From assembly GCA_012861695.1 (NCBI GenBank), contig JAAOOA010000170.1, positions 265,001-329,000 of the forward strand: a stretch of 64,000 bases of DNA, written 5' to 3'. Position numbers and translations under genes: made by a program. Origin of the DNA: Trematomus loennbergii (Eukaryota > Chordata > Actinopteri > Perciformes > Nototheniidae). Shown here piece after piece: positions 25,621 through 64,000 of this stretch (position 1 is the stretch's first letter; each line of letters starts with the position of its first letter). The notes under the pieces are model-generated. The model had not been told where the DNA came from. It saw only the letters and a program-made list of their open reading frames with translations, and did not search any database.

Positions 25621-25623
25621 TTA

Positions 25624-30224: not shown

Positions 30225-30954
30225 GATTAGTAACATGTATTGTGTTTACGTGATGACATTTGGAGATGTTTAAACTCAATGAGAAAATGCGTTAGCATTC
30301 GCGCTAGCGTTAGCATACACGTTAGTGTTAGCCATACTAGCCTGTATACATGCTTATTGCACAGCTAGCATTAGCTATATTCACCTTGTTTACACTTATC
30401 GGTCCTATGTGTTAATCTGTGTATGTTACATTGCATGTATGAGATCATTAAGTGCCTTGTAACTTATTTTTTTATAGTTTCACTCCGTTTGAATGTCAGT
30501 GGACTGCAAATAAGTCAATAAAGGAGCATGGCTGCTCATTCCCTGGCTCTCAAAAGAGTTTGGCTGGCTCTTTAATCTATGTTCACACTGAGACAGTAAA
30601 ACACATAGAGAGAACAGTGCACCTATTGTGTAAGTACATACAAGCAGGTCCCACAGTATGATTTTGGTATGTGTCTGAACCTCTCTTTAGTGGTTCATTA
30701 TTAAAACAGATATTTCAACATGGGCCTACTTTGTTCATGTACTCTTGAGGTAGTTGTGTACTATCATGTATTTACAAAGTGTGAAGAGGAGGCAACTTTA
30801 GAATAGGGAACCTGTTCAGGTCAATTAGAGTCAAACTACTAGCTTATTGGTTATGAACAAGACTTCACTTTGAAATAGAGAAATATTCTTAGATAGAAAT
30901 ACCTAATTAGAGTCGAACTACTAACTTATTGGTTATGAACAATACTTCACTTTA

Positions 30955-33207: not shown

Positions 33208-33605
33208 AGGTGTGATATTCCCCATTGTAGTAGATCCTTTGTTGTCTAATCTAATTAGCCTTTGATGTCTGCCCCTTTGTTGTCTAATCTAATTAGCCCT
33301 TTGATGTCAGTCCTTTGATGTGAGGGGTGAGGTGTTGTAACATGTAGGTGTGATATTCCCCTTTGTAGTAGATCCTTTGTTGTCTAATCTAATTAGCCTT
33401 TGATGTCTGCCCCTTTGTTGTCTAATCTAATTAGCCCTTTGATGTGAGGGGTGAGGTGTTGTAACATGTAGGTGTGATATTCCCCCTTGTAGTAGATCCT
33501 TTGTTGTCTAATCTAATTAGCCTTTGATGTCTGCCCTTTGTTGTCTAATCTAATTACCTTTGATGTCTGTCCTTTGATGTGAGGGTGGTGAGGTGTTGTA
33601 ACATG
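33208..33605 (+). repeat. ~130-bp tandem repeat with TCTAATCTAATTAG words
   Basis: About three units containing 'gtgtgatattcccc', 'cctttgttgtctaatctaat' and 'gaggtgttgtaacatgtagg'. A further partial unit lies left of the LINE at about 31175-31225. It forms the outer left flank of the Polinton palindrome, and similar words are at 41690-41730 in inverted form. Confidence 0.85.
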
Positions 33606-43479: not shown

Positions 43480-44126
43480 TTAAGGCCCGGACACACCAAG
43501 CCGATTTTGGCCGTCGATGGGCGTCAGGCCGACGATGAGCGTCGACACGCCCTATTCAGATTGGTGTGTCCCGCACCGTCGTGTCTTTTCAGCCGTGCCG
43601 ACACCTTTCCATGTCGAATCGGTGGGCAGTCGGCCAAAGGCTGTCGGCAAAAGAAATCACTCTGATTGGCTGTTCAGCTAGCGAATCAGTGCATGAGAAG
43701 CGAAACGGAGTGAGGGACCCAAACAAACTATTAAGAAGGCAAATCTGAGATTTCATTTAACTCCAGCTCTCGACACAGGTTCGGGAAAGCCCATGAGCTT
43801 CTCGCTGTAGAGTGAAAATGGAACGCACACGCTATTTGTTGTTTGTATATATCACGCAGTCTGGTCTTCTTCTCTCGTTATCACGCAGTCTGTCTTCCGG
43901 TTGTTGTCTCTTTTGAATGACGAATACACACTACCGCCGCCTGCTGGTAAGGAGTTATTGCCACTCACGCATGCGCAGTTCGTATGTGATTCTTGGCCGT
44001 CGGCTGAAGTCTTTGCGGTATGTTCCAGTGCGACACATGGCCAAGACGCAGAGACACGAGGCGACACAACAGTCGGGGGTCCGTCTGTGTCAGTTCTTTG
44101 GTGTCAGCTTGGTGTGTGGGCCTTTA
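43480..44126. mobile_element. Harbinger-like non-autonomous element with TTA duplication
   Basis: Element 43483-44123 (641 bp). The left end AGGCCCGGACACACCAAGC is the reverse complement of the right end, best seen in segmental copy 1 (GCTTGGTGTGTCCGGGCCT at 25602-25620); in this copy the right end has lost two bases. TTA flanks both sides (43480-43482 and 44124-44126), fitting the 3-bp duplication of PIF/Harbinger. No transposase. Confidence 0.8.
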
Positions 44127-45068
44127 GCTTCAGTCAAGACTTCCAGGAAAGGGGGCCATTGAGCCAGGCCTGACATCCGACTTAGAGTGCCCTTTCCTGG
44201 GTCATTCCCAGCCTGACCCCCACCCTTCCCCTGGAGTGAAAGGAGTGAAAGTATCTTCAGGATGCTTGATTCTGCTCAAGAAATTAGCCATAGGGCTCTT
44301 TGAGGTACTTACACTGTAGAGGGAGTTCAGTGGAAACACTTCAAAGAGGGGGCCTTCTGGTGGATTTGTGCAAAAATGCCTAAAAGAGCCCAAACTTTGA
44401 AAATATCAATTTTTGCAATGGAAGGTGCTTTAACCTTGCTTTCTTTCCAATGGTGCCCAATAGAAAAACGAGTCAATGTAGGGACCCTTCACTGATCTAT
44501 GGGTCTTGGAACTTTCCCCCAAGGGAGGTTTTATCAGCATCAATGCGGAAGAAGCAAACCCATTTTACACCTTGGCTATCCAAAGGTTGGACAGTCACTT
44601 TCTCCGTCTTTGCACACTGCCACCTTGGTTTTGGAGCGTCACCCTCGTGGTTCTTGGCTGCCACCATCTGGGTTTTGGTTCGTTCAGTGATGCTGTCTGA
44701 AGTGATTGAGACAATCTTTTACCTGGCACATTTTTACTGAGATAAGTGCAAGACATTTAACAAAAACATCTTTGAGGTTTTCACGTCAGTCAGTAATTAT
44801 TAGAAACCAGATGTTCTTTGAGGTCTGTCCAGTGAAACCACTCCCACGCTGTGTCCCCCCCCCCTCCAATATTGTCAGATAGTAAGGTCCCTGTCATGAG
44901 CTCTGGCCGTGACTCCAGCTCAGGTGTAGCAGGTGAAACACAACTGTTGTCTGACATTTGTTTCACATTTGACACAGGTTTCTGTTGTTGGATGTATAGT
45001 TGTTGAATAATGCTTTATCTGTGCTCATCTTTAACATAATGTTCTAAATCTTTAACAACAGGAGGATC
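44127..45068. other. Upstream region of odorant receptor copy 2
   Basis: Collinear with 25624-26560. The splice-acceptor-like 'ctttaacaacag' is conserved just upstream of the ATG. No coding region supported. Confidence 0.5.
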
Positions 45069-45993
45069 ATGGTTAACTCTACGGAAGCTTCCTATTTTAT
45101 ACTGACTGCATACTCTGACACCGGGGTTTTTAAATACCTATATTTCCTGATCATTCTGGCTTTGTATATTTGTATTATAGGTGCCAATATGTTGCTGATT
45201 GTGGTTATCTGTGTGAACAGGAGCTTACATGAACCTATGTACCTTTTTCTGTGCAGCCTGTTTGTAAATGAACTGTATGGTAGTACAGGGTTGTTTCCAT
45301 TCCTTCTGGTTCAGATCCTCTCTGACATTCACACTGTTTCTGCTCCGCTCTGCTTCCTGCAGATTTTCTCTGTGTATACATATGCAAATGTACAGATTTA
45401 TATTTTAGCCATCATGTCTTATGACAGATATCTTGCTATCTGTTATCCTCTGCAATATAACACATATATGACATCTAACAAAGCTTCCTTTCTTATTACA
45501 GTGTCATGGTTTTTCCCTTTTCTTGCAATTGTTGTTATGATATTCCTGACTCTGTCTTTGCAGCTGTGTGGGAACATACTTAATATAGTTTACTGTGGGA
45601 ATTACTCCATTGTTAAGCTGGCCTGCTCTGACACCAGGGTCAATAACATTTATGGACTCTTTTACACGGTCCTCCATCATCATTCCTCTGCTTTTAATCC
45701 TCTACACGTACATGAGGATCCTCAGAGTGTGTTTCTCTGGCTCCAAACAGACCAGACAGAAAGCTCTCAGTACCTGCACACCTCACCTCGCTTCCTTGCT
45801 TAACTTCTTTTTTGGAGCTTTTTTCCAGATATTACAGAGCAGGTTTGATATGAGCAGTGTTCCCAACATTCTGTGCGTTTTATTATCCCTGTACTTTCTA
45901 ACATGCCAACCTCTCTTTACCCCAGTCCTGTACGGGCTGAAGATGTCTAAAATCCGCATCATATGTAAGCGTCTGTTGTACGGAGAAGTGTAG
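45069..45993 (+). pseudogene. Odorant receptor, copy 2, one frameshift in TM5
   Basis: Fish odorant receptor, a G-protein-coupled receptor of olfactory neurons. The first frame (45069-45803) has an N-terminal glycosylation site (MVNSTEAS), TM1 IIGANMLLIVVICVN, TM2 MYLFLCSLFVNELYG, the TM3 motif MSYDRYLAICYPLQY, and extracellular loop 2 with Cys residues (YCGNYSIVKLACSDTRVNNI). The second frame (from about 45675 to 45993) gives the rest: IIIPLLLILYTYMRILRVCF, KALSTCTPHLASLLNFFF and TM7 FLTCQPLFTPVLYGLKMSKI. The shift lies in 'gtcctccatcatc' near 45670. Copy 1 has the same shift, so it predates the duplication or is a shared error. Apart from this the gene looks complete, about 307 codons. Confidence 0.93.
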
Positions 45994-47800
45994 GTCATCA
46001 AGAGATTGCAGAGAAAGAGAATGAAAGGACTCTGACTTCAGCAGTATTAACTCTAATGACGTGTCTAGTTCACTGTGTGCAGAGGAAGGAAATGAAACGT
46101 GCAGCTGTACATGTGCTGAGCTTGATGCTGCTCTCTCTTTCTGTTTCTTATCTTGCTTTTCACTTTTCATATCAGCCTCAGTGATTTTAGGAGAACCCTG
46201 AAAGGTCCATGAGTCAGGACGTTAGGAGTGAAACTGAAGTTAAAGCTGAATGAAGCTTCTCGCTGTGAACAGACACAGAGCAGCTTCATATCAACTATGT
46301 TCCCAATATGTTGACAGTATTTTCACCATTGTATTCTCTCACATGTAATGTGTCCCAAATATACATCCTGTGTACAAATCTGCTGTTAGCTTTCACATCA
46401 CCTGTGACCTTATGAGTATAAATCAATGCAGCGTTGTACTACACTGAATAAATAACACACACAGCGGTTTGTATTGTCTTTTTCATGTCATGCAAAGTAA
46501 TGGTTCTGATCCTTTACGGGATGCACAACATTTACCTATCATGTAGTATTTTTGTACTTTATTGAATTTTTACTTTTACAAAAGTAAAGGATCTTCTTCC
46601 AGCTTTAATGAATCTAAAGCGACTCCCACTGAGAGCTTCTGCAGGCTGTAATACCTGTTGAAACATCAGTCATTTAACATTACAAAGAAATCAAAGGCAG
46701 TTGCTGTGCCAAAAGAAATAGAAGCCTGGAAGTCATGATCTATGATTATAGAGTCAGTTTGAGGTGCCCCAATACATTTCACATGATTTGCAGGTATTTT
46801 GTCTAAAATATGATGCTGTCCTTTTCAAATACTATGAATTGGATTTACCCTTACTTTCAACCCATTCATTTGTAATTTGGGTAACACTTTATATTAAGGT
46901 ACACAAATTCACCATCAACTAGTTGTTAATTAACATGCGTATTAGCAGTATATTGGCTCTTCATTAGTCATTATAAAACACTTATTAATGCCTTATTCTA
47001 CATGACCATATTCTACAAGTAATAAGCCATTAGTTGAGAGTTTTTCCTCAATAACCCTCTAATTAGAGCTTATTTATTGCAAGTAAGGAAGTTTGGTCTT
47101 AATATTCTCTGCTCAATATGGGCCTAATAAGGCAGTAGTAACACAAGAATAGTAATACTCCCATAATAACACTTAACAAATATGATCTATTCTCATGTAC
47201 CAAGACATGAAACTATAAGTGTTAATTGTGTCTAAATAATTCAAAATTAGGTATTTATATCTAAGAATATGTTTTGGGGTATTGACAGTTCAGCTACCAA
47301 TAGCAAGGTGATATATGTTTCATATTTGCACATTTATATTTTTGTAAAATGTGTACTGAAGGTTAGACAGGAAACCGGGTACAGGAAGTAGGAGAAAGTG
47401 AACTGAATAGCATGGCAGTAGACATCCATGAGTAGACTGCTACTAATTGTCCCTTTGCAACCTGAAGAGTAAAAGGGTCAAGTCCGTCAGAAAGCAATGA
47501 CTGCAAGGATTAGTAACATGTATTGTTTTTATTTTGAGACATTTGGAGATGTTTAAACTCAATGAGAAAATGCGTTAGCATTCGCCTAGCGTTAGCATAC
47601 ACGCTAGTGTTAGCCATACTAGCCTGTATACATGCTTATTGCAGAGCTAGCATTAGCTATATTCACCTTGTTTACACTTAGCGGTCCTATGTGTTAATCT
47701 GTGTATGTTACACTTGCATGTATGAGATCATTAAGTGTCTTGTAACTTCTTTTTTTATAGTTTCACTCCGTTTGAATGTCAGTGGACTGCAAATAAGTCA
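45994..47800. other. Downstream region of odorant receptor copy 2
   Basis: Non-coding and collinear with 27482-30515 except for the absent piggyBac-like element. The empty site is at 47222-47225. Confidence 0.6.
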
Positions 47801-48432
47801 ATAAAGGCAACCCAGTCTCACGGCATTTTGTGTTATAGTCACAAAATTAATCTATTGATTCGTGTTCACCAACACGATTTCGACATTTTTTTCGTGTCAC
47901 ACAGAACGATTTTAAAAGCAATGTAAATAATAACAAATTAGAAGGAAAAAGACATTTAAAAAAATACAGATTGAAGTATTCTGACACAGAACGATTTTAG
48001 AAGCAATGTATTTCTATTGGTAGTATGTTTCGTGCCTGCACCAAATAATAACAAATTAGAAGGAAAGAAAGATGACATTAAATACAGATGTCAGTATTCT
48101 GAGGCTCTGAGCATTTCTTTTCCTCACTGATGGCAAAAAAACTCCGACATTATGCAATTCAAAATAAAAGGGATAGGGTTAGGCTTAGGGTAAGATATTG
48201 AGTAAGAACATGTTTTTATGAACCACACAGCTTCTGGTATTCTAAGACCCGACCGGACAAAAAGACGTGTTGCAGGCACGAAACATACTACCAATAGAAA
48301 TACATTGCATTTAAAATCGTTCTGTGTGACACGAAAAAAAATGCGAAAATCGTGTTGGTGAACACGAATCAATAGATTAAATTAATTTCGTGACTAATAA
48401 CACGAAATGCCGTGAGACTGGGTTGATAAAGG
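47801..48432. mobile_element. Long-TIR non-autonomous transposon (618 bp)
   Basis: Element 47808-48425 starts CAACCCAGTCTCACGGCATT and ends with its reverse complement (CCGTGAGACTGGGTTG). The inverted repeat runs about 120 bases per side, with a further inverted segment ('ctattggtagtatgtttcgt' and its complement) closer to the centre. It is flanked by ATAAAGG (47801-47807 and 48426-48432). Segmental copy 1 has the empty site at about 30513-30530. A 7-bp duplication, possibly part of a longer one, leaves the superfamily open. Confidence 0.92.
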
Positions 48433-49165
48433 AGCATGGCTGCTCATTCCCTGGCTCTCAAAAGAGTTTGGCTGGCTCTTTAATCTATGTTCACACTGAG
48501 ACAGTACAACACATAGAGAGAACAGTGCACCTATTGTGTAAGTACATACAAGCAGGTCCCACAGTATGATCACAAATACATACAATCTGTTAAAAATCTG
48601 TTTTTATTAAAAAGTACAGGCTGCATGTGTTCTCAGCCTTGGAGAAACTTGACTTGTTTTGGTATGTGTCTGAACCTCTCTTTAGTGGTTCATTCATAAA
48701 ACAGATATTTCAACGTGTGCCTACTTTGTTCATGTGCTGTTGAGGTTAATTTCAGTAGTTGTGTGCTATCATGTATTTACAAAGTGTGAAGAGGAGGCAA
48801 CTTTAGATGAGGGAATGCTCTGGTTTTTGGACAAAGTTAACATGGGATAACTCCCGTCACCGGACGTACTTCGTCTCACTGGAATATTAACGGCCATAGT
48901 GAATATAAAATCATCCCCATGTATCCGGCCAATGGCGGGAGAGTTTTTGAAAGAGACAAAACAATGTTCCATACATTTAAAAACACTTAAACAATTAAAC
49001 AATGTTTACCCCAGGATTCAGGCACCTTCCCTGGCTTGTAAAGTGCAGTTATGCGCCCTGGAGGTATTGCACTATTTACAAAATGTATACCCAGGATTGA
49101 GGCACCTTACCTGGCTTGTAAAGTGCAGTTGTGCGCCATGGAGGTATTCTGCTATTTACAAAATG

Positions 49166-52100
49166 TAGCACTCTGTTTATTTCACACCTCCAGGGCGGAG
49201 ACCGGGAAACCACCTCTCTTTGCCCGCTCACAGAGCCCCGAAGGACGGACTAGAGACCTCCAGCACCAGTCCCTAACAGTGGGACTCTGTTTATTTCACA
49301 CCTCCAGAGAGACGAGGGGAAAATCACCTCTATTTGCACGCTCACAGAGCCCCGAAGGACGGACTAGAGACCTCCAGCACCAGTCCCTAACATGGGACTC
49401 TGTTTATTTCACACCTCCAGGGCGGAGACCGGGAAAACCACATCTCTTTGCCCGCTCACAGAGCCCCGAAGGACGGACTAGAGACCTCCAGCACCAGTCC
49501 CTAACAGTGGGACTCTGTTTATTTCACACCTCCAGGAGCGAGACCGGGAAATCACCTCTCTTGCCCGCTCACAGAGCCCCGAAGGACGGACTAGAGACCT
49601 CCAGCACCAGTCCCTAACAGTGGGACTCTGTTTATTTCACACCTCCAGGGCGGAGACCGGGAAATCCACCTCTCTTTGCCCGCTCACAGAGCCCCGAAGG
49701 ACGGACTAGAGACCTCAGCACCAGTCCCTAACAGTGGGACTCTGTTTATTTCACACCTCCAGGGCGGAGACCGGGAAAACCACCTCTCTTTGCCGCTCAC
49801 AGAGCCCCAAGGACGGACTAGAGACCTCCAGCACCAGTCCCTAACAGTGGGACTCTGTTTATTTCACACCTCCAGGAGAGACGAGGGGGAAATCACTCTC
49901 TCTGCCCGCTCACAGAGCCCCGAAGGACGGACTAGAGACCTCCAGCACCAGTCCCTAACAATGGGACTCTGTTTATTTCACACCTCCAGGGCGGAGACCG
50001 GGAAAACCACCTCTCTTTGCCCGCTCACAGAGCCCCGAAGGACGGACTAGAGACCTCAGCACCAGTCCCTAACAGTGGGACTCTGTTTATTTCACACCTC
50101 CAGGAGAGACAAGGGGGAAATCACCTCTCTCTGCCGCTCACAGAGCCCTGAAGGACGGACTAGACCTCCAGCACCAGTCCCTAACAGTGGGACTCTGTTT
50201 ATTTCACACCTCCAGGGAGACAAGGGAAATCAACTGTCTCTGCCCGCTCACAGAGCCCCGAAGGACGGACTAGAGACCTCCAGCACCAGTCCCTAACAGT
50301 GGGACTCTGTTTATTTCACACCTCCAGGGCGGAGACCGGGAAAATCACCTCTCTTTGCCCGCTCACAGAGCCCCGAAGGACGGACTAGAGACCTCCAGCA
50401 CCAGTCCCTAACAGTGGGACTCTGTTTATTTCACACCTCCAGGGCGGAGACCGGGAAAACCATCTCTTTGCCCGCTCACATAGCCCCGAAGGACGGACTA
50501 GAGACCTCCAGCACCAGTCCCTAACAGTGGGACTCTGTTTATTTCACACCTCCAGGAGAGACGAGGGGGAAATCACCTCTCTCTGCCGCTCACAGAGCCC
50601 CGAAAGACGGACTAGAGACCTCCAGCACCAGTCCCTAACAGTGGGACTCTGTTTATTTCACACCTCCAGGAGCGGAGACGGGAAATCACCTCTCTTGCCC
50701 GCTCACAGAGCCCCGAAGGACGGACTAGAGACCTCCAGCACCAGTCCCTAACAGTGGGACTCTGTTTATTTCACACCTCCAGGAGAGACGAGGGGAAAAT
50801 CACCTCTATTTGCGCGCTCACAGAGCCCCGAAGGACGGACTAGAGACCTCCAGCACCAGTCCCTAACAGTGGGACTCTGTTTATTTCACACCTCCAGGGC
50901 GAGACCGGGAAAACACCTCTCTTTGCCCGCTCACAGAGCCCCGAAGGACGGACTAGAGACCTCCAGCACCAGTCCCTAACAGTGGGACTCTGTTTATTTC
51001 ACACCTCCAGGAGAGACAAGGGGAAAATCACCTCTCTCGCCGCTCACAGAGCCCCAAAGGACGGACTAGAGACCTCCAGCACCAGTCCCTAACAGTGGGA
51101 CTCTGTTTATTTCACACCTCCAGGAGAGACAAGGGAAAATCACTGTCTCTGCCCGCTCACAGAGCCCCGAAGGACGGACTAGAGACCTCCAGCACCAGTC
51201 CCTAACAGTGGGACTCTGTTTATTTCACACCTCCAGGAGGACAAGGGAAAACACCTCTCTTTGCCGCTCACAGAGCCCCAAGGACGGACTAGAGACCTCC
51301 AGCACCAGTCCCTAACAGTGGGACTCTGTTTATTTCACACCTCCAGGGCGGAGACCGGGAAAACCACATCTCTTTGCCTGCTCACATAGCCCCGAAGGAC
51401 GGACTAGAGACCTCCAGCACCAGTCCCTAACAGTGGGACTCTGTTTATTTCACACCTCCAGGAGACGAGGGGGAAATCACCTCTCTCTGCCCGCTCACAG
51501 AGCCCCGAAGACGGAATAGAGACCTCCAGCACCAGTCCCTAACAGTGGGACTCTGTTTATTTCACACCTCCAGGGCGGAGACCGGGAAAACCACCTCTCT
51601 TTGCCCGCTCACAGAGCCCCGAAGGACGGACTAGAGACCTCCAGCACCAGTCCCTAACAGTGGGACTCTGTTTATTTCACACCTCCAGGAGAGACGAGGG
51701 GAAAATCACCTCTATTTGCGCGCTCACAGAGCCCCGAAAGGACGGACTAGAGACCTCCAGCACCAGTCCCTAACAGTGGGACTCTGTTTATTTCACACCT
51801 CCAGGGCGGAGACCGGGAAAACACCTCTCTTTGCCCGCTCACAGAGCCCTGAAGGACGGACTAGAGACCTCCAGCACCAGTCCCTAACAGTGGGACTCTG
51901 TTTATTTCACACCTCCAGGAGAGACAAGGGGGAAATCACCTCTCTCTGCTCGCTCACAGAGCCCCAAAGGACGGACTAGAGACCTCCAGCACCAGTCCCT
52001 AACAGTGGGACTCTGTTTATTTCACACCTCCAGGGCGGAGACCGGGAAAACCACCTCTCTTTGCCCGCTCACAGAGCCCCGAAGGACGGACTAGAGACCT

Positions 52101-52905
52101 CCAGCACCAGTCCCTAACAGTGGGACTCTGTTTATTTCACACCTCCAGGGCGGAGACCGGGAAAACCACCTCTCTTTGCCCGCTCACAGAGCCCCGAAGG
52201 ACGGACTAGAGACCTCCAGCACCAGTCCCTAACAGTGGGACTCTGTTTATTTCACACCTCCAGGAGAGTCCGGGAAAATCACCTCTCTTTGCCCGCTCAC
52301 AGAGCCCCGAAGGACGGACTAGAGACCTCCAGTACCAGTCCCTAACAGTGGGACTCTGTTTATTTCACACCTCCAGGAGAGACGAGGGGGAAATCACCTC
52401 TCTCTGCCCGCTCACAGAGCCCCGAAGGACGGACTAGAGACCTCCAGCACCAGTCCCTAACAGTGGGACTCTGTTTATTTCACACCTCCAGGGCAGAGAC
52501 CGGGAAACCACCTCTCTTTGCCCGCTCACAGAGCCCCGAAGGACGGACTAGAGACCTCCAGCACCAGTCCCTAACAGTGGGACTCTGTTTATTTCACACC
52601 TCCAGGAGAGAGTCCGGGAAAATCACCTCTCTTTGCCCGCTCACAGAGCCCCGAAGGACGGACTAGAGACCTCCAGCACCAGTCCCTAACAGTGGGACTC
52701 TGTTTATTTCACACCTCCAGGAGAGAGTCCGGGAAAATCACCTCTCTTTGCCCGCTCACAGAGCCCCGAAGGACGGACTAGAGACCTCCAGCACCAGTCC
52801 CTAACAGTGGGACTCTGTTTATTTCACACCTCCAGGAGAGAGTCCGGGAAAATCACCTCTCTTTGCCCGCTCACAGAGCCCCGAAGGACGGACTAATGAC
52901 CACCA
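49166..52905 (+). repeat. 114-bp tandem repeat array, copy B (about 33 units)
   Basis: The same unit as in A but expanded to about 3.7 kb. Two sub-variants alternate irregularly: 'cctccagggcggagaccggg' and 'cctccaggagagacgagggg'. Many units differ by single missing bases ('cctcagcacc', 'gccgctcac'). Confidence 0.95.
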
Positions 52906-53292
52906 GCATGTCCCCATAACAGTGGCACCTCCATAACCTTGCACACCTTGAGTCCCCGGGCCCCCGCAGTTAAGCACTCCCGCACGGACTAAACACAGGT
53001 ATTCACACCCACCAGAACCTCGTGCCCCTGGTGACCCTAAAGGGGGGTGGATTTTGTGGTGCTTTTATGTCCGCCCATCAGAATCCAAATTCGGCCTTCT
53101 TATTGGCACCACCACCACCCTTCTGGGCTGGAGGTTCAAACACTTTAACTTTTTTTCACCCTCCTCTGGCTTACACCTCCTCCGCCAACACTTGAGCGCT
53201 CATCACAGGGTTCAGCACCAAGGAGAGTGCCTCCCCGGTGCTGATGGAAAGTGGCACTTTATCTGCCCCTGGGAACCATCAAGGTTATTGTT
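52906..53292. other. Element B spacer
   Basis: Matches 11522-11890 of A and ends 'ggttattgtt'. In A and C a further ~0.95 kb (60-bp repeats, 80-bp units and the 3' part of the recombinase gene) follows; here it is deleted. Confidence 0.8.
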
Positions 53293-54110
53293 CCCCATCC
53301 ACCGCATGACCCAGCTAAACTCCTCTACCGCTGTGCTTCGCCATATGTCTTGGCCGTCTTGTGATCCTGCACATGGATGATGTAGCCCTCAGCAGTTCCC
53401 CTTATGGCTGCCTCTAAGACCTCACTGTTTTTCATGTTTGCGTACACGCCCGTACGGTGGCCATACAGGAGGCTCCAATGGAGGGTGAGATAGCCATAGA
53501 GAAGCTTCTGGGTGGTTGAGGTCGGCGTGCCGGCCATCAGGTCGAGGAGCTCCGGGATGCGCTTCTCAGCGGCCGCCATGGCGGCGAGAAGCTCCGCCTG
53601 GCTCGGCAGACGATCCAGTTTGTTCCTCTTCACCTTAAACTGATGTAGAGTGACTGCCTTATTCAAGTGTTTCATGTTGGCTTTCACCTCTCTCATTATG
53701 TGGGTCATATCAGACTGGGTGAGCTTGCACCCCCGGGGCTTTGACTCAGACATGTACCCCATGAACTGGTGCACATTCTTCAGGAAGAACTCTGATGTTG
53801 TGACTGCCCGGCCCGGCTTTACAATATACTCGCTCCAGCCACGGATCATCTTCATGTTTCTTAGGAACAGCCAGTCTGACAGGCGGTTAACACCATGGGC
53901 CATGTATACTATGAAGTTCTTTATCCGGCTGATCTTCGACACAACATTGTCTTTCTGTTTTACTGTCGGAGCGACACCCAAACAATGATCCAAGTATGTC
54001 TGAAGGTACGCCTCCATGCTTCTAGGCAACGTGATTTCACGCATGGTATTCCCCCGTCCACACCCAGTGGACCAGTAATTTGAGGGAGAGGGCAAGTCAT
54101 TAGCCAGCTT
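53293..54110 (-). pseudogene. Tyrosine recombinase, copy B, catalytic end deleted
   Basis: The frame 54431-53325 contains the repeats, the core-binding region (LPRSMEAYLQTYLDHCLG) and the first catalytic Arg and Lys (HRTGVYANM, DHKTAKTYG), then ends. The TILR, His and Tyr segments are removed by the deletion that joins the spacer at 53292/53293. A second loss of 14 bases at about 53329 ('ctctaccgctgtgc' for 'ctctactgtaagcgccagctgtgc') shifts the residual frame. The product cannot cleave DNA, although it could still bind it. Confidence 0.88.
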
Positions 54111-54740
54111 AGAGGCACGGGTCTTCCGGCATACAGGGGTCTCGCTACCGGAGGCTACTGCAAACATGACAGTTTCCACCGGGGTCTTCACAGGGGTCTC
54201 GCTACCGGAGGCTACTGCAAACATGACAGTTTCCACCGGGGTCTTCACAGGGGTCTCGCTACCGGAGGCTACTGCAAACATGACAGTTTCCACCGGGGTC
54301 TTCACAGGCGTCTCGCTACCGGAGGAAACTGGTAATATGACAGTCTTCACTGGGCTCTTCACAGGGTTCTTGACCGGTCTCTTTCCACCGGAGGCTACTG
54401 CAAGCATTACAGTCTTCACTTGGCTCTTCACAGGGTCTCCTACCGGAGGCTACTGCAAGCATGACAGTCTTCACCGGGCTCCTCACAGGGGTCCCGCTAC
54501 CGGAGGTTACTGGGGAATGCATGACAGTCTTCACCGGGGTCTTCACAGGGGTCCCGCTACCGGAGGTTACTGGGGAATGCATGACAGTCTTCACCGGGGT
54601 CTTCACAGGGGTCCCGCTACCGGAGGTTACTGGGGAATGCATGACAGTCTTCACCGGGGTCTTCACAGGGGTCCCGCTACCGGAGGTTACTGGGGACTGC
54701 ATGACAGTCTTCACCGGGGTCTTCACAGGGGTATTGCTGC
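54111..54740 (-). repeat. In-gene tandem repeats, copy B
   Basis: Three 57-bp units (54140-54310) and four to five 60-bp units (54480-54740) with mixed units between. A deletion at about 54434-54440 ('gggtctcctaccgg') changes frame between the two arrays; copy C is intact at that place. Confidence 0.9.
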
Positions 54741-55335
54741 CTGAGGCTACTGTGTTTATGCCGGAGGTACTTGGGATTGCCAGGCCCTTAAATCGTATAC
54801 ATTCGTCCTCTTCCTCAAGAACAGCAGCACTCTGCTTCCTGGGTTTTAGCTCCTTTTTCAGCCTGGAGCGCAGGGTCTTCACCTCATCATTGAGGGCATC
54901 CTTCTGAGCCCTCAATGCCACATTTTCCAGCATCACCTGCCTGCAGTCCTCGTTGTCACACTCGGTATGTGGGGAGAAGGGTGGAGGGTGCCCGGGGTAT
55001 TCCCCCTCATTGTCTATATCCAATGATGTAGCCATTCCAATGATGGGGTTAGTCTCACGGAGGTCATGGAGCAACTGCAGTGCCACACTATGCTTCAACC
55101 TGCTGTGCCTCATGTCGGGACACTCAGGGTGGTCATGTTTTACATGACGGTCCAGTCTCTTCCCAGCGTACGAACACCCAGCGATGGGACAGGGTTTGGT
55201 CCGAACATTTATCCTTCCACTGGCTATTTTCAGGAGGATTCCCCTCTCCTCCAAGTTCCGCACTGCATGCTTGTGCTTAAGGTGTTTGTTCAATGCCAGA
55301 TAGAAGAGTCTGCACACCGGGCATTCAGATGACAT
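54741..55335 (-). CDS. Zinc-finger and coiled-coil N-terminal region, copy B
   Basis: Same region as 14561-15165; start at the ATG at 55335 (MSSECPVCRLF). Fingers: CPVC...LNKHLKHKH and CPIAGCSYAGKRLDRHVKHDH. The frame remains open from 55368 to 54316 (350 codons), showing that fingers, coiled coil (LENVALRAQKDALNDEVKTL) and repeats belong to one protein. Compared with A, an in-frame loss after HPECPDMRH removes the AQQVMA segment. Confidence 0.78.
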
Positions 55336-55403
55336 CCTTACTGAAACACACACAATGAATTTGATCAAAATGATGTTATAGTTCTCCGTTTATATGCGTT
55401 AGC

Positions 55404-55720
55404 GTGAGCGGTGGTTGCGACACTGGGTCCGATGCATCAATTCATGGTGCATGGACGAAGGGAAGTATTGGGTTACCACCGGGTCAGATGGTCCCACTTC
55501 CGCACCAACGCGGGGCTGGTGATGGCAACATTGGGTCCGATGCATCAATTCATGGTGCACAGACCAAGGGAGGGCTTGGGTTACCACCGGGTTGGATGGT
55601 CCCACCTCCGCACCAACGCGGTGCTGGTGATGGCAACATTGGGTCCGATGCATCAATACATGGTGCCCCGACCATGAGAGGGTTTGGGGTGCCCCGGAAC
55701 CAGGCACCACCCCAGCAGGA
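55404..55720 (+). repeat. ~109-bp tandem repeat, copy B (3 units)
   Basis: The same units as at 15240-15510, with 'tgggtccgatgcatcaattc' at about 55426, 55533 and 55641; the third unit is complete here. Located just upstream of the zinc-finger start. Confidence 0.9.
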
Positions 55721-55849
55721 AACGGGTTGTATGGTCAAAGGAGGAAAGAGTGATAGAACCGGGGTAAAGCAAAGAAAGTGTCCGACAATAGTGACTTGTG
55801 AGGCGGCCAGAGAGTCTGTCATATCTCGGTCCTATCCTCCAGGCAACAC

Positions 55850-56771
55850 TGTGGCCAAAACTGGGCTAAAAACAAAAAATATATATATTTCATCCAGGGA
55901 AATTTGGGTGAAAATGAAAAAAAGTACCCGGAAATAGTGCCTCATGACCCCGCGGGAGTCCCCTGTCGACTCCCATGGCTTTCCTCCATGGGCAAAATGA
56001 TCAAACTCAACTTTTTGAGAACCAGGAAAAGGGGTCAAAATGAAAAATTGTACCCCAAAATAGTGCCTCATGACCCCGCAGGAGTCCCCTGTCGACTCCA
56101 TGGCTTTCCTCCATGGGCAAAATGATCAAACTCAACTTTGTGAGAACCAGGAAAAGGGGTCAAAATGGAAAAATTGTACCCCAAAATAGTACCTCATGAC
56201 CCCAAGAGAGTCTGTCATCTCTCGGTCATATCCTCCAGGGTCACTAGAAGGGTCCAAGCCATCACCAGTCCATGTTTAAATTGAGAAATGTATCCCAAAA
56301 TAGTGCATCAAATGCGGGTAGAGTCCCCTGTCGACTGCCCTTGCATTCATCCAGGGTCACAATAATCAAACTCAACTTTTGTGAGAACCAGGCAAAAGGG
56401 GTCAAAATGCAAAAATTGTGTCCCAAATAGTGCCTCATGACCCCGCAGAGTCCCCTGTCGACTCCGTGACATTCCTCCATGAGCAAAATCATCAAACTCA
56501 ACTTTTGTGAGAACCAGGAAAACGGGTCAAAATGGGAAAATTGTACCCCAAAATAGTGCCTCATGACCCCGCAGGAGTCCCCTGTCGACTCCCGTGACAT
56601 TCCTCCATGGGCAAAATCATCAAACTCAACTTTTGTGAGAACCAGGCAAAGGGGTCAAAATGGGAAAATGATGCCCCAAAATAGTGCTTCAAATTCGGGT
56701 AGAGTCCCCTGCAAAGTGCCCTTGCATTCCTCCATGGGTCAAAATGTCGAACTTAAAGTATTTGGAGAACC
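55850..56771 (+). repeat. ~125-bp degenerate tandem repeat, copy B
   Basis: About seven units with 'ccccaaaatagtgcctcatg' and 'aaaatcatcaaactcaactt'. The last unit stops at 'ggagaaccaggga', where copy C begins. Confidence 0.85.
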
Positions 56772-57150
56772 AGGGATAAGGGAATGCTCTGGTTTTCGGA
56801 CAAAATTAACATGGGATCACTCCCGTCACTGGACGTACTTCGTCTCACTGGAATAGTAACGGTCATAGTCAATATAAAATCGTCCCCATGTATCCGGCCA
56901 ATGACGGGAGAGTTTTGAAAGAGACAAAACTGTTCCATACATTTAAAAACACTTAAACAATTAAACAATGTTTACCCCAGGATTCAGGCATCTTCCCTGG
57001 CTTGTAGAGTGCAGTTATGCGCCTTGGAGGTATTGCAATATTACAAAATGTATACCCAGGATTATGGCCCCTTCCCTGGCTTGTAAAGTGCAGTTATGCG
57101 CCATGGAGGTATTCTCCAGATCCCTCAGATAATTAGGAAGTCATTCTGCC

Positions 57151-57178
57151 AGTTCTGCTTACCAATGTAAGCAGAACT
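57151..57178. repeat. Perfect 12-bp stem, 4-base loop hairpin
   Basis: AGTTCTGCTTAC, loop CAAT, GTAAGCAGAACT. It is found only in copy C, at the left edge of the GC-rich insert. Confidence 0.9.
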
Positions 57179-57182
57179 GATG

Positions 57183-57432
57183 GCTTAGGGAGCCCATCCC
57201 AGGCATATATGGTGGCGGGGTACACATATGGCCGGGAGCGCACCCCCCCCAACGTTTTCCCGACGGGCGGACCCTCGGGGGTGTCGGGGGGTCCCCGGGC
57301 CTCCGGGAGTCTCGACCCCGGACCCCAGAGACCCCCCCACGATTTTAGGGGCCACGTCGACCGATACTTACCCAGAAAACAGGGCTCTGATCAGGGCTAA
57401 AGTCTTGTTAGAAACTGGTGAATCTGTTTAAA
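57183..57432. other. GC-rich insert in copy C
   Basis: Base composition is unlike its surroundings: runs such as 'gggggtgtcggggggtcccc' and 'agacccccccacgatttt'. It replaces the start of the 114-bp array found in A and B. No ORF or known RNA was recognised. Confidence 0.6.
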
Positions 57433-57436
57433 TGCA

Positions 57437-59270
57437 GGAGACCTCCAGCAGAAGTCCCTAACAGTGGGACTCTGGTTATTTCACAGCTCCAGAGAGACCA
57501 GGGGAAAATCACCTGTCTGTGCCCGCTCACAGACCCCAAAGTACGGACTCATGACCTCCAGGATGGCTCCCTAACAGTGGGACTCTGTGCATTTCACAGC
57601 TCCAGCAGAGACCAGGGGAAAATCACCTGTCTGTGCCCGCTCACAGACCCCAAAGTACGGACTCATGACCTCCAGGATGGCTCCCTAACAGTGGGACTCT
57701 GTGCATTTCACAGCTCCAGAGAGACCAGGGGAAAATCACCTGTCTGTGCCCGCTCACAGACCCCAAAGTACGGACTCATGACCTCCAGGATGGCTCCCTA
57801 ACAGTGGGACTCTGTGCATTTCACAGCTCCAGCAGAGACCAGGGGAAAATCACCTGTCTGTGCCCGCTCACAGACCCCCAAAGTACGGACTCATGACCTC
57901 CAGGATGGCTCCCTAACAGTGGGACTCTGTGCATTTCACAGCTCCAGAGAGACCAGGGGAAAATCACCTTCTGTGCCCGCTCACAGACCCCAAAGTACGG
58001 ACTCATGACCTCCAGGATGGCTCCCTAACAGTGGGACTCTGTGCATTTCACAGCTCCAGCAGAGACCAGGGGAAAATCACCTCTTTTGCCCGCTCACAGA
58101 CCCCCAAAGTACGGACTCATGACCTCCAGGATGGCTCCCTAACAGTGGGACTCTGTGCATTTCACAGCTCCAGAGAGACCAGGGGAAAATCACCTGTCTG
58201 CCCGCTCACAGACCCCCAAAGTACGGACTCATGACCTCCAGGATGGCTCCCTAACAGTGGGACTCTGTGCATTTCACAGCTCCAGGAGAGACCAGGGGAA
58301 AATCACCTGTCTGTGCCCGCTCACAGACCCCCAAAGTACGGACTCATGACCTCCAGGATGGTCCCTAACAGTGGGACTCTGTGCATTTCACAGCTCCAGA
58401 GAGACCAGGGGAAAATCACCTGTCTGTGCCCGCTCACAGACCCCCAAAGTACGGACTCATGACCTCCAGGATGGCTCCCTAACAGTGGGACTCTGTGCAT
58501 TTCACAGCTCCAGCAGAGACCAGGGGAAAATCACCTCTGTGCCCGCTCACAGACCCCCAAAGTACGGACTCATGACCTCCAGGATGGCTCCCTAACAGTG
58601 GGACTCTGTGCATTTCACAGCTCCAGAGAGACCAGGGGAAAATCACCTGTCTGTGCCCGCTCACAGACCCCCAAAGTACGGACTCATGACCTCCAGGATG
58701 GCTCCCTAACAGTGGGACTCTGTGCATTTCACAGCTCCAGCAGAGACCAGGGGAAAATCACCTCTTTTGCCCGCTCACAGAGCACCGAAAGACGGACTCA
58801 TGACCTCCAGGATGGCTCCCTAACAGTGGGACTCTGTGCATTTCACAGCTCCAGAGAGACCAGGGGAAAATCACCTGTCTGTGCCCGCTCACAGACCCCC
58901 AAAGTACGGACTCATGACCTCCAGGATGGCTCCCTAACAGTGGGACTCTGTGCATTTCACAGCTCCAAGAGAGACCAGGGGAAAATCACCTTCTGTGCCC
59001 GCTCACAGACCCCCAAAGACGGACTCATGACCTCCAGGATGGCTCCCTAACAGTGGGACTCTGTGCATTTCACAGCTCCAGCAGAGACCAGGGGAAAATC
59101 ACTCTTTTTGCCCGCTCACAGAGCACCGAAAGACGGACTAGAGACCTCCAGGATGGCTCCCTAACAGTGGGACTCTGTGCATTTCACAGCTCCAGGAGAG
59201 ACCAGGGGAAAATCACCTGTCTGTGCCCGCTCACAGAGCCCCGAAGGACGGACTCATGACCTCCAGCATG
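57437..59270 (+). repeat. 114-bp-type tandem array, copy C variant (about 16 units)
   Basis: Homologous to the A and B arrays, but most units carry their own changes ('catttcacagctccag', 'cagaccccaaagtacggact', 'ctccaggatggctccctaac'). The last units before 59270 are intermediate, with 'agcaccgaaagacgg' and finally 'agccccgaaggacgg'. Confidence 0.95.
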
Positions 59271-59379
59271 TCCCCATAACAGTGGGACCTCCATAACCTT
59301 GCACACCCTGAGTCCCCGGGCCCCCACACTTAAGCACTCCCCCACGGACTAAACACAGGTATTCACACCCACCAGAACC

Positions 59380-59710
59380 TCGTGCCCCTGGTGACCCTAA
59401 AGGGGGTGGATTTTGTGGTGCTTCTATGTCCGCCCATCAGCATCCATAGTCGGCCTTCTTCACGGCACCACCACCCCTTCTGTTGAGGGTATTCTCGTGC
59501 CCCTGGTGACCCTAAAGGGGGTGGATTTTGTGGTGCTTCTATGTCCGCCCATCAGCATCCATAGTCGGCCTTCTTCACGGCACCACCACCCCTTCTTGAG
59601 GGTATTCTCGTGCCCCTGGTGACCCTAAAGGGGGTGGATTTTGTGGTGCTTCTATGTCCGCCCATCAGCATCCATAGTCGGCCTTCTTCACGGCACCACC
59701 ACCCCCCTTC
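59380..59710 (+). repeat. ~115-bp spacer segment repeated three times, copy C
   Basis: 'ctcgtgcccctggtgaccct' to 'cacggcaccaccacccc' occurs three times, against once in A and B. Confidence 0.92.
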
Positions 59711-60044
59711 TGGGCTGGAGGTTCAAACACTTTAACTTTTGTTCACCCTCCTCTGGCTTACACCTCCTCCGCCAACACTTGAGCGCTCATCACAGGGTTC
59801 AGCACCCCGGTGCTGATGGAAAGTGGCACTTTATCTGCCCCTGGTAACCATCAAGGTTATTGTTTTTTTTAATTTTTTATTTTATTTGAACACACACCCT
59901 AAAACATCAACCACACACCCTAAAACATCAACTATTTACACGTTGCAGTAACAAAAATGACAGTACACACAGACTAAAACATCAACTATTTACACGTACT
60001 ACTGCTGCTATAACAGTACTACTAAATTTCTTAACCTACGTTTT

Positions 60045-60560
60045 AAAGTGCAGTTATGCGCCCTGGAGGTGTTGCACTATTAACAAAATGTATGCCCAGG
60101 ATTCTGGCACCTTCCCTGGCTTGTAAAGTGCAGTTATGCGCCCTGGAGGTGTTGCACTATTAACAAAATGTATGCCCAGGATTCTGGCACCTTCCCTGGC
60201 TTGTAAAGTGCAGTTATGCGCCCTGGAGGTGTTGCACTATTAACAAAATGTATGCCCAGGATTCTGGCACCTTCCCTGGCTTGTAAAGTGCAGTTATGCG
60301 CCCTGGAGGTGTTGCACTATTAACAAAATGTATGCCCAGGATTCTGGCACCTTCCCTGGCTTGTAAAGTGCAGTTATGCGCCCTGGAGGTGTTGCACTAT
60401 TAACAAAATGTATGCCCAGGATTCTGGCACCTTCCCTGGCTTGTAAAGTGCAGTTATGCGCCCTGGAGGTGTTGCACTATTAACAAAATGTATGCCCAGG
60501 ATTCTGGCACCTTCCCTGGCTTGTAAAGTGCAGTTATGCGCCCTGGAGATATTGTACTAT
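60045..60560 (+). repeat. 80-bp tandem repeat, copy C (about 6.5 units)
   Basis: Almost perfect 80-base units ('gtgcagttatgcgccctgga', then 'cccaggattctggcaccttc'). Copy A has two at the equivalent place. The array lies 60-600 bases downstream of the recombinase stop codon. Confidence 0.95.
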
Positions 60561-60623
60561 TTACAAAATGTATACACAGGATTATAATAATAATTATATA
60601 CACGGTATACATATTCACAATGT

Positions 60624-62348
60624 TTAGCGGGATTCAGGGGACCAAAGGCGTCTAATTCTTACGGTGCACCAGGGCAAACAGGTTGAGTCCACGGCCCCTG
60701 CCCCATCATCAGGAGTGTCAACCAGCCCCGGTCCCGACTTCATTGGCCTCTTTCCCTCCCGCTTCCGCTTCCGCTGCTGCTGCCGCTCCAATGACCCATC
60801 AGGTGAAGATGATGGAGCAGTACTGTTATAGCAGCCCTCTTCGGAGGTCTCCCCATCTGACAGCGGTAGACATCCTTCTGATGATGATGCAGCTGCTGCC
60901 GCATCTGATGACGCCCTGAACATGGAGCGGATTCTCAATGCCTCCTTTATTCCCGGCGCATTCGCGTAGAACCGGTCCGCCGTGGTTACGTCGTGACACA
61001 TAAACCTGGCGAGAATCGACCGGCTTTCTGGATCTTGGTGATGCTTGATATTGTCAGCCAGGGCAGTGCGCAGGATTGTGAAGGTGACGGCTGTTTCTAG
61101 CCCAGCATCAGCCCATGCCCTCTTCAAGTGAGCGTTCAGGTTCTTGGAGGCCCGATTCCCCCTTGTGAAAAGGAAGAATTCATTCTGAGGACCCAGCAAT
61201 ACCTTTTTAATCCCCATCCACCGCATGACCCAGCTAAACTCCTCTACTGTAAGCGCCAGCTGTGCTTCGCCATATGTCTTGGCCGTCTTGTGATCCTGCA
61301 CATGGATGATGTAGCCCTCAGCAGTTCCCCTTATGGCTGCCTCTAAGACCTCACTGTTTTTCATGTTTGCGTACACGCCCGTACGGTGGCCATACAGGAG
61401 GCTCCAATGGAGGGTGAGATAGCCATAGAGAAGCTTCTGGGTGGTTGAGGTCGGCGTGCCGGCCATCAGGTCGAGGAGCTCCGGGATGCGCTTCTCAGCG
61501 GCCGCCATGGCGGCGAGAAGCTCCGCCTGGCTCGGCAGACGATCCAGTTTGTTCCTCTTCACCTTAAACTGATGTAGAGTGACTGCCTTATTCAAGTGTT
61601 TCATGTTGGCTTTCACCTCTCTCATTATGTGGGTCATATCAGACTGGGTGAGCTTGCACCCCCGGGGCTTTGACTCAGACATGTACCCCATGAACTGGTG
61701 CACATTCTTCAGGAAGAACTCTGATGTTGTGACTGCCCGGCCCGGCTTTACAATATACTCGCTCCAGCCACGGATCATCTTCATGTTTCTTAGGAACAGC
61801 CAGTCTGACAGGCGGTTAACACCATGGGCCATGTATACTATGAAGTTCTTTATCCGGCTGATCTTCGACACAACATTGTCTTTCTGTTTTACTGTCGGAG
61901 CGACACCCAAACAATGATCCAAGTATGTCTGAAGGTACGCCTCCATGCTTCTAGGCAACGTGATTTCACGCATGGTATTCCCCCGTCCACACCCAGTGGA
62001 CCAGTAATTTGAGGGAGAGGGCAAGTCATTAGCCAGCTTAGAGGCACGGGTCTTCCGGCATACAGGGGTCTCGCTACCGGAGGCTACTGCAAACATGACA
62101 GTTTCCACCGGGGTCTTCACAGGGGTCTCGCTACCGGAGGCTACTGCAAACATGACAGTTTCCACCGGGGTCTTCACAGGGGTCTCGCTACCGGAGGCTA
62201 CTGCAAACATGACAGTTTCCACCGGGGTCTTCACAGGGGTCTCGCTACCGGAGGCTACTGCAAACATGACAGTTTCCACCGGGGTCTTCACAGGGGTCTC
62301 GCTACCGGAGGCTACTGCAAACATGACAGTTTCCACCGGGGTCTTCAC
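60624..62348 (-). CDS. Tyrosine recombinase (Crypton-like), open copy
   Basis: 574 open codons. The frame begins inside the repeats (GTG-initiated in the conceptual frame), so the true N terminus is upstream across a one-base lesion at 62351. Residues 1-95: five 19-residue repeats TPVKTPVETVMFAVASGSE. Residues about 124-215: helical core-binding region. Catalytic domain about 300-465: Arg322 (GHRTGVYANM), Lys354 (VQDHKTAKTYG), Arg427 in TILR (Thr424 takes the usual His place of HxxR), His452 (CHDVTTADRF) and Tyr461 as nucleophile. Spacings of 25 and 9 residues fit tyrosine recombinases. The C-terminal tail (466-574) has an acidic/Ser part and a basic nuclear-signal-like RQQQRKRKREGKRP. No RT nearby, so Crypton rather than DIRS is inferred. 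Confidence 0.88.
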   Translation of the reverse strand: MKTPVETVMFAVASGSETPVKTPVETVMFAVASGSETPVKTPVETVMFAVASGSETPVKTPVETVMFAVASGSETPVKTPVETVMFAVASGSETPVCRKTRASKLANDLPSPSNYWSTGCGRGNTMREITLPRSMEAYLQTYLDHCLGVAPTVKQKDNVVSKISRIKNFIVYMAHGVNRLSDWLFLRNMKMIRGWSEYIVKPGRAVTTSEFFLKNVHQFMGYMSESKPRGCKLTQSDMTHIMREVKANMKHLNKAVTLHQFKVKRNKLDRLPSQAELLAAMAAAEKRIPELLDLMAGTPTSTTQKLLYGYLTLHWSLLYGHRTGVYANMKNSEVLEAAIRGTAEGYIIHVQDHKTAKTYGEAQLALTVEEFSWVMRWMGIKKVLLGPQNEFFLFTRGNRASKNLNAHLKRAWADAGLETAVTFTILRTALADNIKHHQDPESRSILARFMCHDVTTADRFYANAPGIKEALRIRSMFRASSDAAAAASSSEGCLPLSDGETSEEGCYNSTAPSSSPDGSLERQQQRKRKREGKRPMKSGPGLVDTPDDGAGAVDSTCLPWCTVRIRRLWSPESR

Positions 62349-62770
62349 AGGCTCTCGCTACCGGAGGAAACTGGTAATATGACAGTCTTCACTGGGCTCT
62401 TCACAGGGTTCTTGACCGGTCTCTTTCCACCGGAGGCTACTGCAAGCATTACAGTCTTCACTTGGCTCTTCACAGGGTTCTTTACCGGTGTCTTCCCACC
62501 GGAGGCTACTGCAAGCATGACAGTCTTCACCGGGCTCCTCACAGGGGTCCCGCTACCGGAGGTTACTGGGGAATGCATGACAGTCTTCACCGGGGTCTTC
62601 ACAGGGGTCCCGCTACCGGAGGTTACTGGGGAATGCATGACAGTCTTCACCGGGGTCTTCACAGGGGTCCCGCTACCGGAGGTTACTGGGGAATGCATGA
62701 CAGTCTTCACCGGGGTCTTCACAGGGGTCCCGCTACCGGAGGTTACTGGGGACTGCATGACAGTCTTCAC
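62050..62770 (-). repeat. In-gene tandem repeats, copy C
   Basis: Five 57-bp units (about 62060-62345), two mixed units, then four to five 60-bp units (about 62530-62770). The only break is 'cacaggctctcgc' at about 62347-62353, where B reads 'cacaggcgtctcgc'. Confidence 0.92.
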
Positions 62771-62989
62771 CGGGGTCTTCACAGGGGTATTGCTGCCTGA
62801 GGCTACTGTGTTTATGCCGGAGGTACTTGGGATTGCCAGGCCCTTAAATCGTATACATTCGTCCTCTTCCTCAAGAACAGCAGCACTCTGCTTCCTGGGT
62901 TTTAGCTCCTTTTTCAGCCTGGAGCGCAGGGTCTTCACCTCATCATTGAGGGCATCCTTCTGAGCCCTCAATGCCACATTTTCCAGCAT
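62771..62989 (-). CDS. Coiled-coil segment of the recombinase protein, copy C
   Basis: The frame 62989-62345 starts at LENVALRAQKDALNDEVKTL and runs on through EEEDECIRFKGLAIPSTSGI into the repeats. The zinc fingers are missing: at 62990 the sequence joins a segment equivalent to about 17325 of copy A. Confidence 0.8.
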
Positions 62990-63496
62990 CAGGCTGACTC
63001 ACTTCACTTGTCTCACACACACCCAGGGGGGGAAAGATAACACTTGTACCCAGGAATAAGTCTTTGAAAGGCGGGGAAAAGTTGTTTGAAATAGTATAAT
63101 ACCTCCAGGCCGCTTAACTGCACTTTACCACCCAGAAATAATGTTTAAATGGTTGGGGAAAGTATTTTTAAATGTCTGGAAGAGAGTTTTAGACAGTCAT
63201 TTTGCACGAAATTATTTAACATAGACGCTCTCCTGAAAATGCACAGAATATGTGCTTTTCAGGAGACCGTTAATGTTAAATGATTTCTTGCAAAATGACT
63301 GGCTAAAACCCCGGAATAAATGTTTGAAAAGCTGGGAAAAGTTGTTAAAAATAGGCTGATATCTCCAGGGCGCATCTCCAAAAATGTACAAGCCAGGGAA
63401 GATGCCTGAATCCCGGATACTTTAGGTCTGTCACTTAGGGTGACCGCACCACTCCGACGCTCCCGAGAGCGGACGTCCATTGTTTGTAAGGCACCT
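62990..63496. other. Displaced far-end segment in copy C
   Basis: Equivalent to A 17325-18655 without the retroposed insert and with only one hairpin (about 63187-63308). More diverged from A than the coding parts are. Contains 'cctccagggcgcatctccaa', an inverted 80-bp-unit core. Confidence 0.75.
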
Positions 63497-64000
63497 AAGA
63501 GGGAATAGGGTGAAAATGTAAAAAATGTGACCCAAAATAGTGCATCAAAATCGGGTAGAGTCACCTGCAAAGTGCCCTGCATTCCTCCATGTCGAACTTA
63601 AAGTATTTTGAGAACCAGGCTGGGGGGGTCTCAAGGCATCAAATTCATCCGACCCAAAGTGCACTCTCATCGGATACATTCTTCCAAGATTTGCAACAGC
63701 CGTTTTTTTTCTGAGTGCACCCAAAAACTGGGTTTCCGATTTTGTGCAGACGGTAGTCTGAAAGTATGGATGAATCTTTTTCCCAGGGAAGGGGAAATGA
63801 AGCCCAGGGACCTTTTCCCCTTCTCCGTTGCACCAACCATCGGAGAAGGGGAAAAAAACGGCCCGAAGCCCCAAACAGTTGGCCCCTTCTCCCGTTGGCA
63901 CTCAGTCATTTTTTTCACAATTTTTCAAAACCTCATTTTTGATTTTTTAAGATATAATTAACCGTTTTCTTCACTTTTCTTTGCTTTCCACGGGTGGGGG
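63497..64000. other. Displaced ~125-bp unit and hairpin segment in copy C
   Basis: From 'gggaatagggtgaaaatg' on, this equals A 15974-15990 and then 16230-16720, including the 14-bp-stem hairpin at 63814-63854. It is cut by the window end. Confidence 0.75.

Follow-up and report, generated by a model that had tools for sequence, protein, structure and literature searches.

We found that the genome of Trematomus loennbergii very probably harbours a high-copy DNA transposon with one recognised gene, for a predicted tyrosine recombinase (YR) that has zinc-finger motifs at its N-terminus; the likely form in which the element travels is a double-stranded circle, inserted conservatively at GA-NAARG-like sites. 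Animal Crypton ends and landing sites are little documented in the literature excerpts examined, and here one genome gives both ends, the joined-end sequence, a target rule, and empty sites, as well as open genes in a family of hundreds of similar copies. A plasmid assay can thus put the excision and integration of a vertebrate YR transposon to a direct test, a natural recombinase whose target rule is short is on offer, and a transposon is tied to the birth of tandem arrays.

Copies in the window and in the genome

The window, by which we mean the whole 64,000-nt stretch of DNA analysed, contains three copies of the element (A, B, and C), all defective (Table 1). Copy C, with the termini GATAAGGG (left) and CACCTAAGAGG (right), is nested in copy B; its joined flanks align with the uninterrupted repeat of copy A over 122 columns, and the alignment shows seven substitutions besides two additional bases, GG, that are part of the right end of the element. 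The zinc-finger part of copy C has been lost, its position 62990 running on as position 17308 of copy A, and its coiled coil lies in a frame other than that of its YR. Frames for zinc fingers and coiled coil are found at 14539-15219 in copy A and at 54316-55389 in copy B.

Table 1. Coordinates of the element and related features in the window
Feature	Position	Strand	Remarks
Copy A	10277-18662	-	ends by comparison with B and C; GATGAGGG...CACCTAAGACA type
Copy B, left part, split by copy C	48806-56774	-	copy comparison
Copy B, right-hand remainder, from copy C to window edge	63503-64000	-	copy comparison
Copy C, nested in copy B	56775-63502	-	both ends present; zinc-finger part deleted
Copy A gene	12243-15219	-	broken by frameshifts
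Copy B gene	53292-55389	-	C-terminal YR part lost; match to gene ends at 53292
Copy C frame, 577 aa	60624-62357	-	repeats, tyrosine recombinase, C-terminal tail
Predicted tyrosine recombinase domain	60918-61973	-	R325, K357, T427, R430, H455, Y464
Tandem-repeat linker (copy C)	62062-62808	-	units 57-69 bp, one frameshift
Predicted coiled-coil region (copy C)	62809-62990	-	other frame
Tandem-repeat linker (copy A)	13670-14579	-	
Long helix, likely coiled coil (copy A)	14674-14769	-	model residues 133-164, block pLDDT ~56-77
Zinc-finger motif 2 (copy A)	14959-15021	-	CX4CX9HX4H
Zinc-finger motif 1 (copy A)	15097-15153	-	CX2CX9HX4H
Left subterminal 80-bp repeats	10481-10717	.	inverted relative to right end
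Right subterminal inverted counterpart	18510-18580	.	
Uninterrupted counterpart, in copy A, of copy C target	15974-15985	.	CAGGGAATAGGG
Paralogous empty site of copy B	30799-30808	.	TAGAATAGGG

The element was followed through the 1.2-Gb assembly containing the window. The left end, allowing up to 2 mismatches, was found at 899 places (control 12) and the exact right end at 562 (control 2); the end types of copy A recur elsewhere in the same genome in a pattern search. Among the matches listed, 14 left-right pairs agreed in position and strand, spanning 7.1-13.8 kb with a median of ~10 kb. At one further locus (L019) both ends lie ~1.3 kb apart, the right one with one mismatch, and this is likely a non-autonomous derivative. 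A first look for the gene gave 4,089 candidate matches, and 76 were scored. These are 98-100% identical, 74 are without internal stop, and 30 of the 76 have open frames of 905-981 aa. Several fish annotate the gene as an ordinary 'uncharacterized protein', as might be expected of a domesticated gene whose copies are moved by other elements; such an origin is barely conceivable, however, considering the identity and intactness of the scored copies and the position of the gene between the ends of the element in copies A-C.

The gene and the arms of the element have diverged unequally. Between copies A and C, 87 of 1,364 aligned arm bases differ, as against 5 of 1,533 in the YR region with its 113-bp trailer (Fisher 2e-23); the left end alone has 7 differences in 182 (1e-4), and some of the arm stretches adjoin repeats. 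A second alignment of the A and C genes gave 4 differences, none of them silent, over ~333 silent sites, and the B and C genes differ at one, silent, position. In its left arm and its YR, the copy C64 is identical to copy C; its differences from copy A there are 3.8% and 0.35%, respectively. Across the copies, divergence is 0-0.6% in the gene (12130-14753, 60514-62990) and ~2-8% in the arms. Purifying selection was considered for the near-identical genes and dropped, since silent sites, which selection on the protein does not explain, are just as conserved. The unchanged gene would be accounted for by gene conversion, or by two subfamilies that differ in their arms having exchanged the gene.

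Ends, target sites, and junctions

Copies begin with GATRAGGG and finish with CACCTAAGAGG or CACCTAAGACA, GA alone being the terminal repeat of the element. The 80-bp unit near the left end of copy A has exact inverted matches near the right end of 27/27 and 17/17 bases (E 6.7e-12 and 6.2e-6), and comparison of the left 444 with the right 401 bases gave no direct repeat. The arms carry arrays of ~80, 115, and 126 bp.

The 114-115-bp array has 32.8 units in copy B (49170-52908), 16.1 in copy C (57455-59288), and 7.0 in copy A (10720-11522), and we read it as a transposon-borne satellite seed. An imperfect palindrome of ~125 bp lies near the right end of the element (17504-17628 and 63186-63309, 93% and 86% self-complementary). 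Copy A also contains an insert of ~255 bp (18150-18404) with a poly-A end and the repeated flank AGAATATGTGCATTTT, likely a retroposed fragment.

Right flanks were taken at 52 exact ends, and 42 were kept once exact duplicates and joints with the element's own end had been removed. CACCTAAGA is followed by GGGA in 40 of these 42 and by CAGA in 2, and the next positions are A (40/42), R (40/42), R (37/42), and G (23/42). When flanks sharing any 7-mer were collapsed (n = 29), the corresponding counts were 28 for GGGA, then 28, 27, 25, and 15. Left flanks are nearly free, with G before GAT in 21 of 35, or 15 of 25 after collapsing. These counts indicate that the target and the left end have GA-NAARG in common, a rule with which the left end GATAAGGG of the element itself complies. 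A target duplication at copy C, which has GGGA on both sides, was considered and dropped, since 40/42 right flanks have GGGA whatever the target; the target of copy C has GG ahead of GA, which accounts for the GGGA on either side.

Unoccupied counterparts of the insertion sites were also found. The left flank of copy B (48657-48815) matches the duplicated stretch 30662-30810 up to the left end of the element, where the latter goes on as the unoccupied TAGAATAGGG. On the plus strand of the window GAATAGGG occurs three times, always at junctions or empty counterparts, and on the minus strand twice, with no link to the element. Furthermore, two joined flank pairs with a single GA were searched genome-wide as predicted empty sites, with reversed controls giving zero. 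The first was found at 2 places, one exact and one with 3 mismatches, where 800 joined bases align at 93-95%, and the second at 172 places. Judged from these joints, insertion is conservative in the cases examined, with GA as the 2-bp common core and no duplication beyond GA.

Head-to-tail junctions of the element were found at 156 places (control 0). The exact right-to-left junctions read CACCTAAGA-GG-GA-TAAGGG or CACCTAAGA-CA-GA-TGAGGG; among the 100 listed, 92 are GG-GATAAGGG, 6 CA-GATGAGGG, and 2 GG-GATGAGGG. Seven pairs of neighbouring junctions lie 9.3-12.3 kb apart (C1, C91, C1041, C1409, C1796, and two on C2068), and such spacing on one contig indicates arrays of whole elements. A satellite or a segmental duplication, instead of a transposon, might be suspected from these arrays, from arms full of tandem repeats, and from the location of the locus inside duplicated DNA. 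It is nevertheless extremely unlikely, considering that the fixed ends border on numerous flanks with no relation to one another (25 on the left and 29 on the right once strictly collapsed), that predicted empty sites were found, and that one copy is nested in another at a target site.

Structure of the encoded protein

The 577-residue frame of copy C, measured from stop to stop, exceeds the longest frame of 288 residues in 1,000 mononucleotide shuffles of 60624-62989. The catalytic residues listed in the first-pass annotation as R322, K354, R427, H452, and Y461 are R325, K357, R430, H455, and Y464 in this frame, a numbering shift of three. The frame is predicted to fold as a YR, so the assignment of the catalytic domain in that annotation is borne out by the structural model; the top matches in a viral structure library were integrases and Vlf-1. 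The VIA-align table contains no structure derived from a Crypton, such as yeast Ndc10, an absence that carries no weight. Sequence searches gave less. PF00589 (Phage_integrase) matched the window protein at E 0.0083-0.015, below the Pfam cut-off, and its best value among 15 members was 0.0037. An NCBIfam profile search of the family gave nothing relevant, a PDB search by sequence found no recombinase, and of the stretches fitting a pattern in viral contigs (8) and prokaryote genomes (27) none was confirmed as a relative.

The annotation had also supposed one protein of about 900 residues, with zinc fingers, coiled coil, repeats, and recombinase in that order, and both suppositions agree with an uninterrupted version elsewhere in the genome: L073, the sole long frame translated in full, has 937 aa and contains all four parts. 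C2H2 fingers usually have a spacing of 12 between the second C and the first H, and the spacing is shorter in the motifs of this family. In an alignment of 13 rows, the first C is the one finger ligand of eight that varies, and only slightly; the other seven are invariant. The N-terminal model places one helix inside each finger motif and is without significant structural match. The linker varies between families and is repetitive in several of them, with lengths of 164 aa (P0001), 31 (P0002), 154 (P0003), and 135 (P0005); its repeats are of a VPLEEQP type in Melanotaenia and short in Scophthalmus.

Protein searches returned 22 proteins, 21 with parts of this YR protein; the 22nd, a gene model resembling alpha-tectorin, matches the finger part over a short stretch. 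The named sources are teleosts: Gymnodraco, Pseudochaenichthys, Chaenocephalus, Melanotaenia, Brachyistius, Scophthalmus, Fundulus, Xiphophorus, Danio, and Cirrhinus. The annotation had proposed a search of other teleosts for the zinc finger-repeat-YR architecture, and zinc finger-YR relatives with both parts in one protein were found in several of them. The residues R-K-T-R-H-Y are absent in 5 of the 21, namely P0011 and P0019, which are without the C-terminal half, P0020, an early fragment, and P0018 and P0021, which are decayed. Among homologs in which the other five residues are intact, all 16 have Thr427 in place of the first His of HxxR. Because R-K-T-R-H-Y is kept in 16 of the 21 relatives, this Thr is, by alignment, a family trait and no defect. 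In a tree of the YR, the window protein joins P0001, P0003, and P0005, near icefish and dragonfish proteins; the tree consists of family members without a Crypton reference, and some nodes near the icefish and dragonfish proteins have low support.

Proposed mechanism

The joined ends read CCTAA-GAGGGA-TAAGG or CCTAA-GACAGA-TGAGG, which in our own reading may represent two imperfect inverted half-sites around 6 bp. For comparison, the usual YR site has half-sites of 11-13 bp around 6-8 bp, according to excerpts from PMC3212892. The fold and its residues, together with the conservative joints and the sequence of the joined ends, lead us to infer that the element would be excised to a double-stranded circle, that Tyr464 would attack the DNA beside GA, and that the recombinase would insert the circle at GA-NAARG by conservative recombination. 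The fingers may bind the 80-bp subterminal repeats or pair both ends, the coiled coil may join subunits, and the repeats could serve as a flexible tether. A circle may also land at the end of a resident copy, where GA-TAAGGG fits the target rule, and this would give rise to head-to-tail arrays. The 156 precise junctions are what circles would leave, which is consistency and not proof.

Relationship to Cryptons and other YR elements

The first-pass description of an RT-less YR DNA transposon stands: the YR is the only transposition enzyme recognised, and neither a reverse transcriptase (RT) nor a DDE transposase was. Pfam scans of copy A covered 30 stop-to-stop frames, each 80 aa or longer, and gave no RT; tblastn with the window's own RT and RNase H proteins as queries found nothing in copies A, B, and C; and RT was absent from the 10 frames scanned among the 12 non-gene frames, each 110 aa or longer, in pieces around the C64 gene. 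Sub-threshold Pfam matches in the arms, namely MLVIN_C in one arm frame of the C64 pieces (26.4 vs 29.2), Orthopox_C10L (21.7 vs 25), zf-RAG1 (18.2 vs 22), and KPP10_Orf10 (19.6 vs 25), were taken as repeat-driven, which is a judgement.

DIRS and Ngaro elements also have a eukaryotic YR, and they integrate without target duplication. A degenerate member that had lost its RT is an explanation to which the zinc-finger motifs in some Gag proteins of such elements and the MLVIN_C match lend something, and these YR carriers make up 2.1% of the zebrafish genome in an excerpt from PMC9341512. However, the RT, RNase H, and methyltransferase that mark DIRS/PAT elements were not found in the window copies or in 10 of the 12 C64-piece frames, nor were the RT and split direct repeats of Ngaro, the direct repeats being compared in the ends of copy A, which have none. 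With the 30 copy A frames and the 10 scanned C64-piece frames free of RT, and fingers and YR within one protein in several species, a DIRS or Ngaro origin is contradicted for the copies examined, and we consider it very unlikely. From the Tn916/Tn1549-type and phage integrases the present element differs in being eukaryotic, with one recognised gene and predicted zinc fingers.

With Cryptons the element shares the lack of RT, a YR as sole recognised enzyme, and the absence of long terminal repeats. Of the R-H-R-Y tetrad by which Cryptons were judged, R, R, and Y are retained and the first His is Thr. In scans of 10 proteins of the family (E up to 10), no match was obtained to C48 peptidase or to GCR1_C, a diverged form of which could be missed, and none to PF12012 (DUF3504), a result that excludes nothing. 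In the excerpts available, the 2011 survey (Kojima and Jurka 2011, PMC3212892) proposes a circular intermediate for Cryptons; it reports that those of animals lack terminal repeats as well as a C-terminal domain, and that medaka alone of the fish it covered has multiple copies. Unlike CryptonA and CryptonI, the present element has N-terminal zinc fingers and a coiled coil, Thr for the first His, a tandem-repeat linker, resolved ends, subterminal inverted repeats, and head-to-tail arrays, at a length of 7.1-13.8 kb in the 14 position-paired copies. CryptonF and CryptonS likewise have a YR, and their short terminal direct repeats are taken as recombination substrates, the common core here being only GA. 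Fungal Cryptons have direct repeats of 4 or 6 bp at their termini; in the present element GA is what the two sides have in common in general, and GGGA at copy C. We call the element Crypton-like in its working and assign it to no named group (A/F/I/S/V), because one tetrad residue is replaced and the YR phylogeny is without Crypton references.

The literature and PMC passages searched, a set that leaves Repbase, Repbase Reports, Dfam, and most subscription journals outside, contain no description of this architecture. The chances are evenly balanced that we are dealing with a separate lineage of vertebrate YR transposons, zinc-finger armed, with R-K-T-R-H-Y, recently active, in ~900 copies, conservative at GA-NAARG, landing at its own ends, and forming arrays that seed satellite DNA. 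Alternatively, and with a chance somewhat short of even, it is a catalogued Crypton family, e.g. a vertebrate Crypton of Repbase or Dfam, merely absent from the literature searched. Homologs in many teleosts would fit a catalogued family, and excerpts from three papers point the same way: Repbase names CryptonA/F/I/S/V (PMC5753468), some CryptonV families are target-specific (PMC8869645), and zebrafish DNA is 0.9% Cryptons (PMC9341512), so that Cryptons are no rarity in fish, and Repbase or Dfam may contain an entry for this family, whatever its name. Against this, the literature excerpts searched, Repbase and Dfam aside, mention no fingers, TxxR motif, or resolved attachment sites for animal Cryptons, and the 2011 survey, as excerpted, has them without terminal repeats (PMC3212892).

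Neighbouring DNA

Other repeats surround the element in the window. A Gypsy-type LTR retrotransposon lies to the right of copy A (18923-24723), with LTRs 98.9% identical and with RT and integrase domains, and LINE-type RT frames are found outside the element at 8188-9348 (RVT_1 E 6.9e-23) and 31664-33250. A segmental duplication joins 25496-30810 and 44001-48815, with 3.2 kb at 97.7% identity, and contains frames that resemble olfactory receptors.
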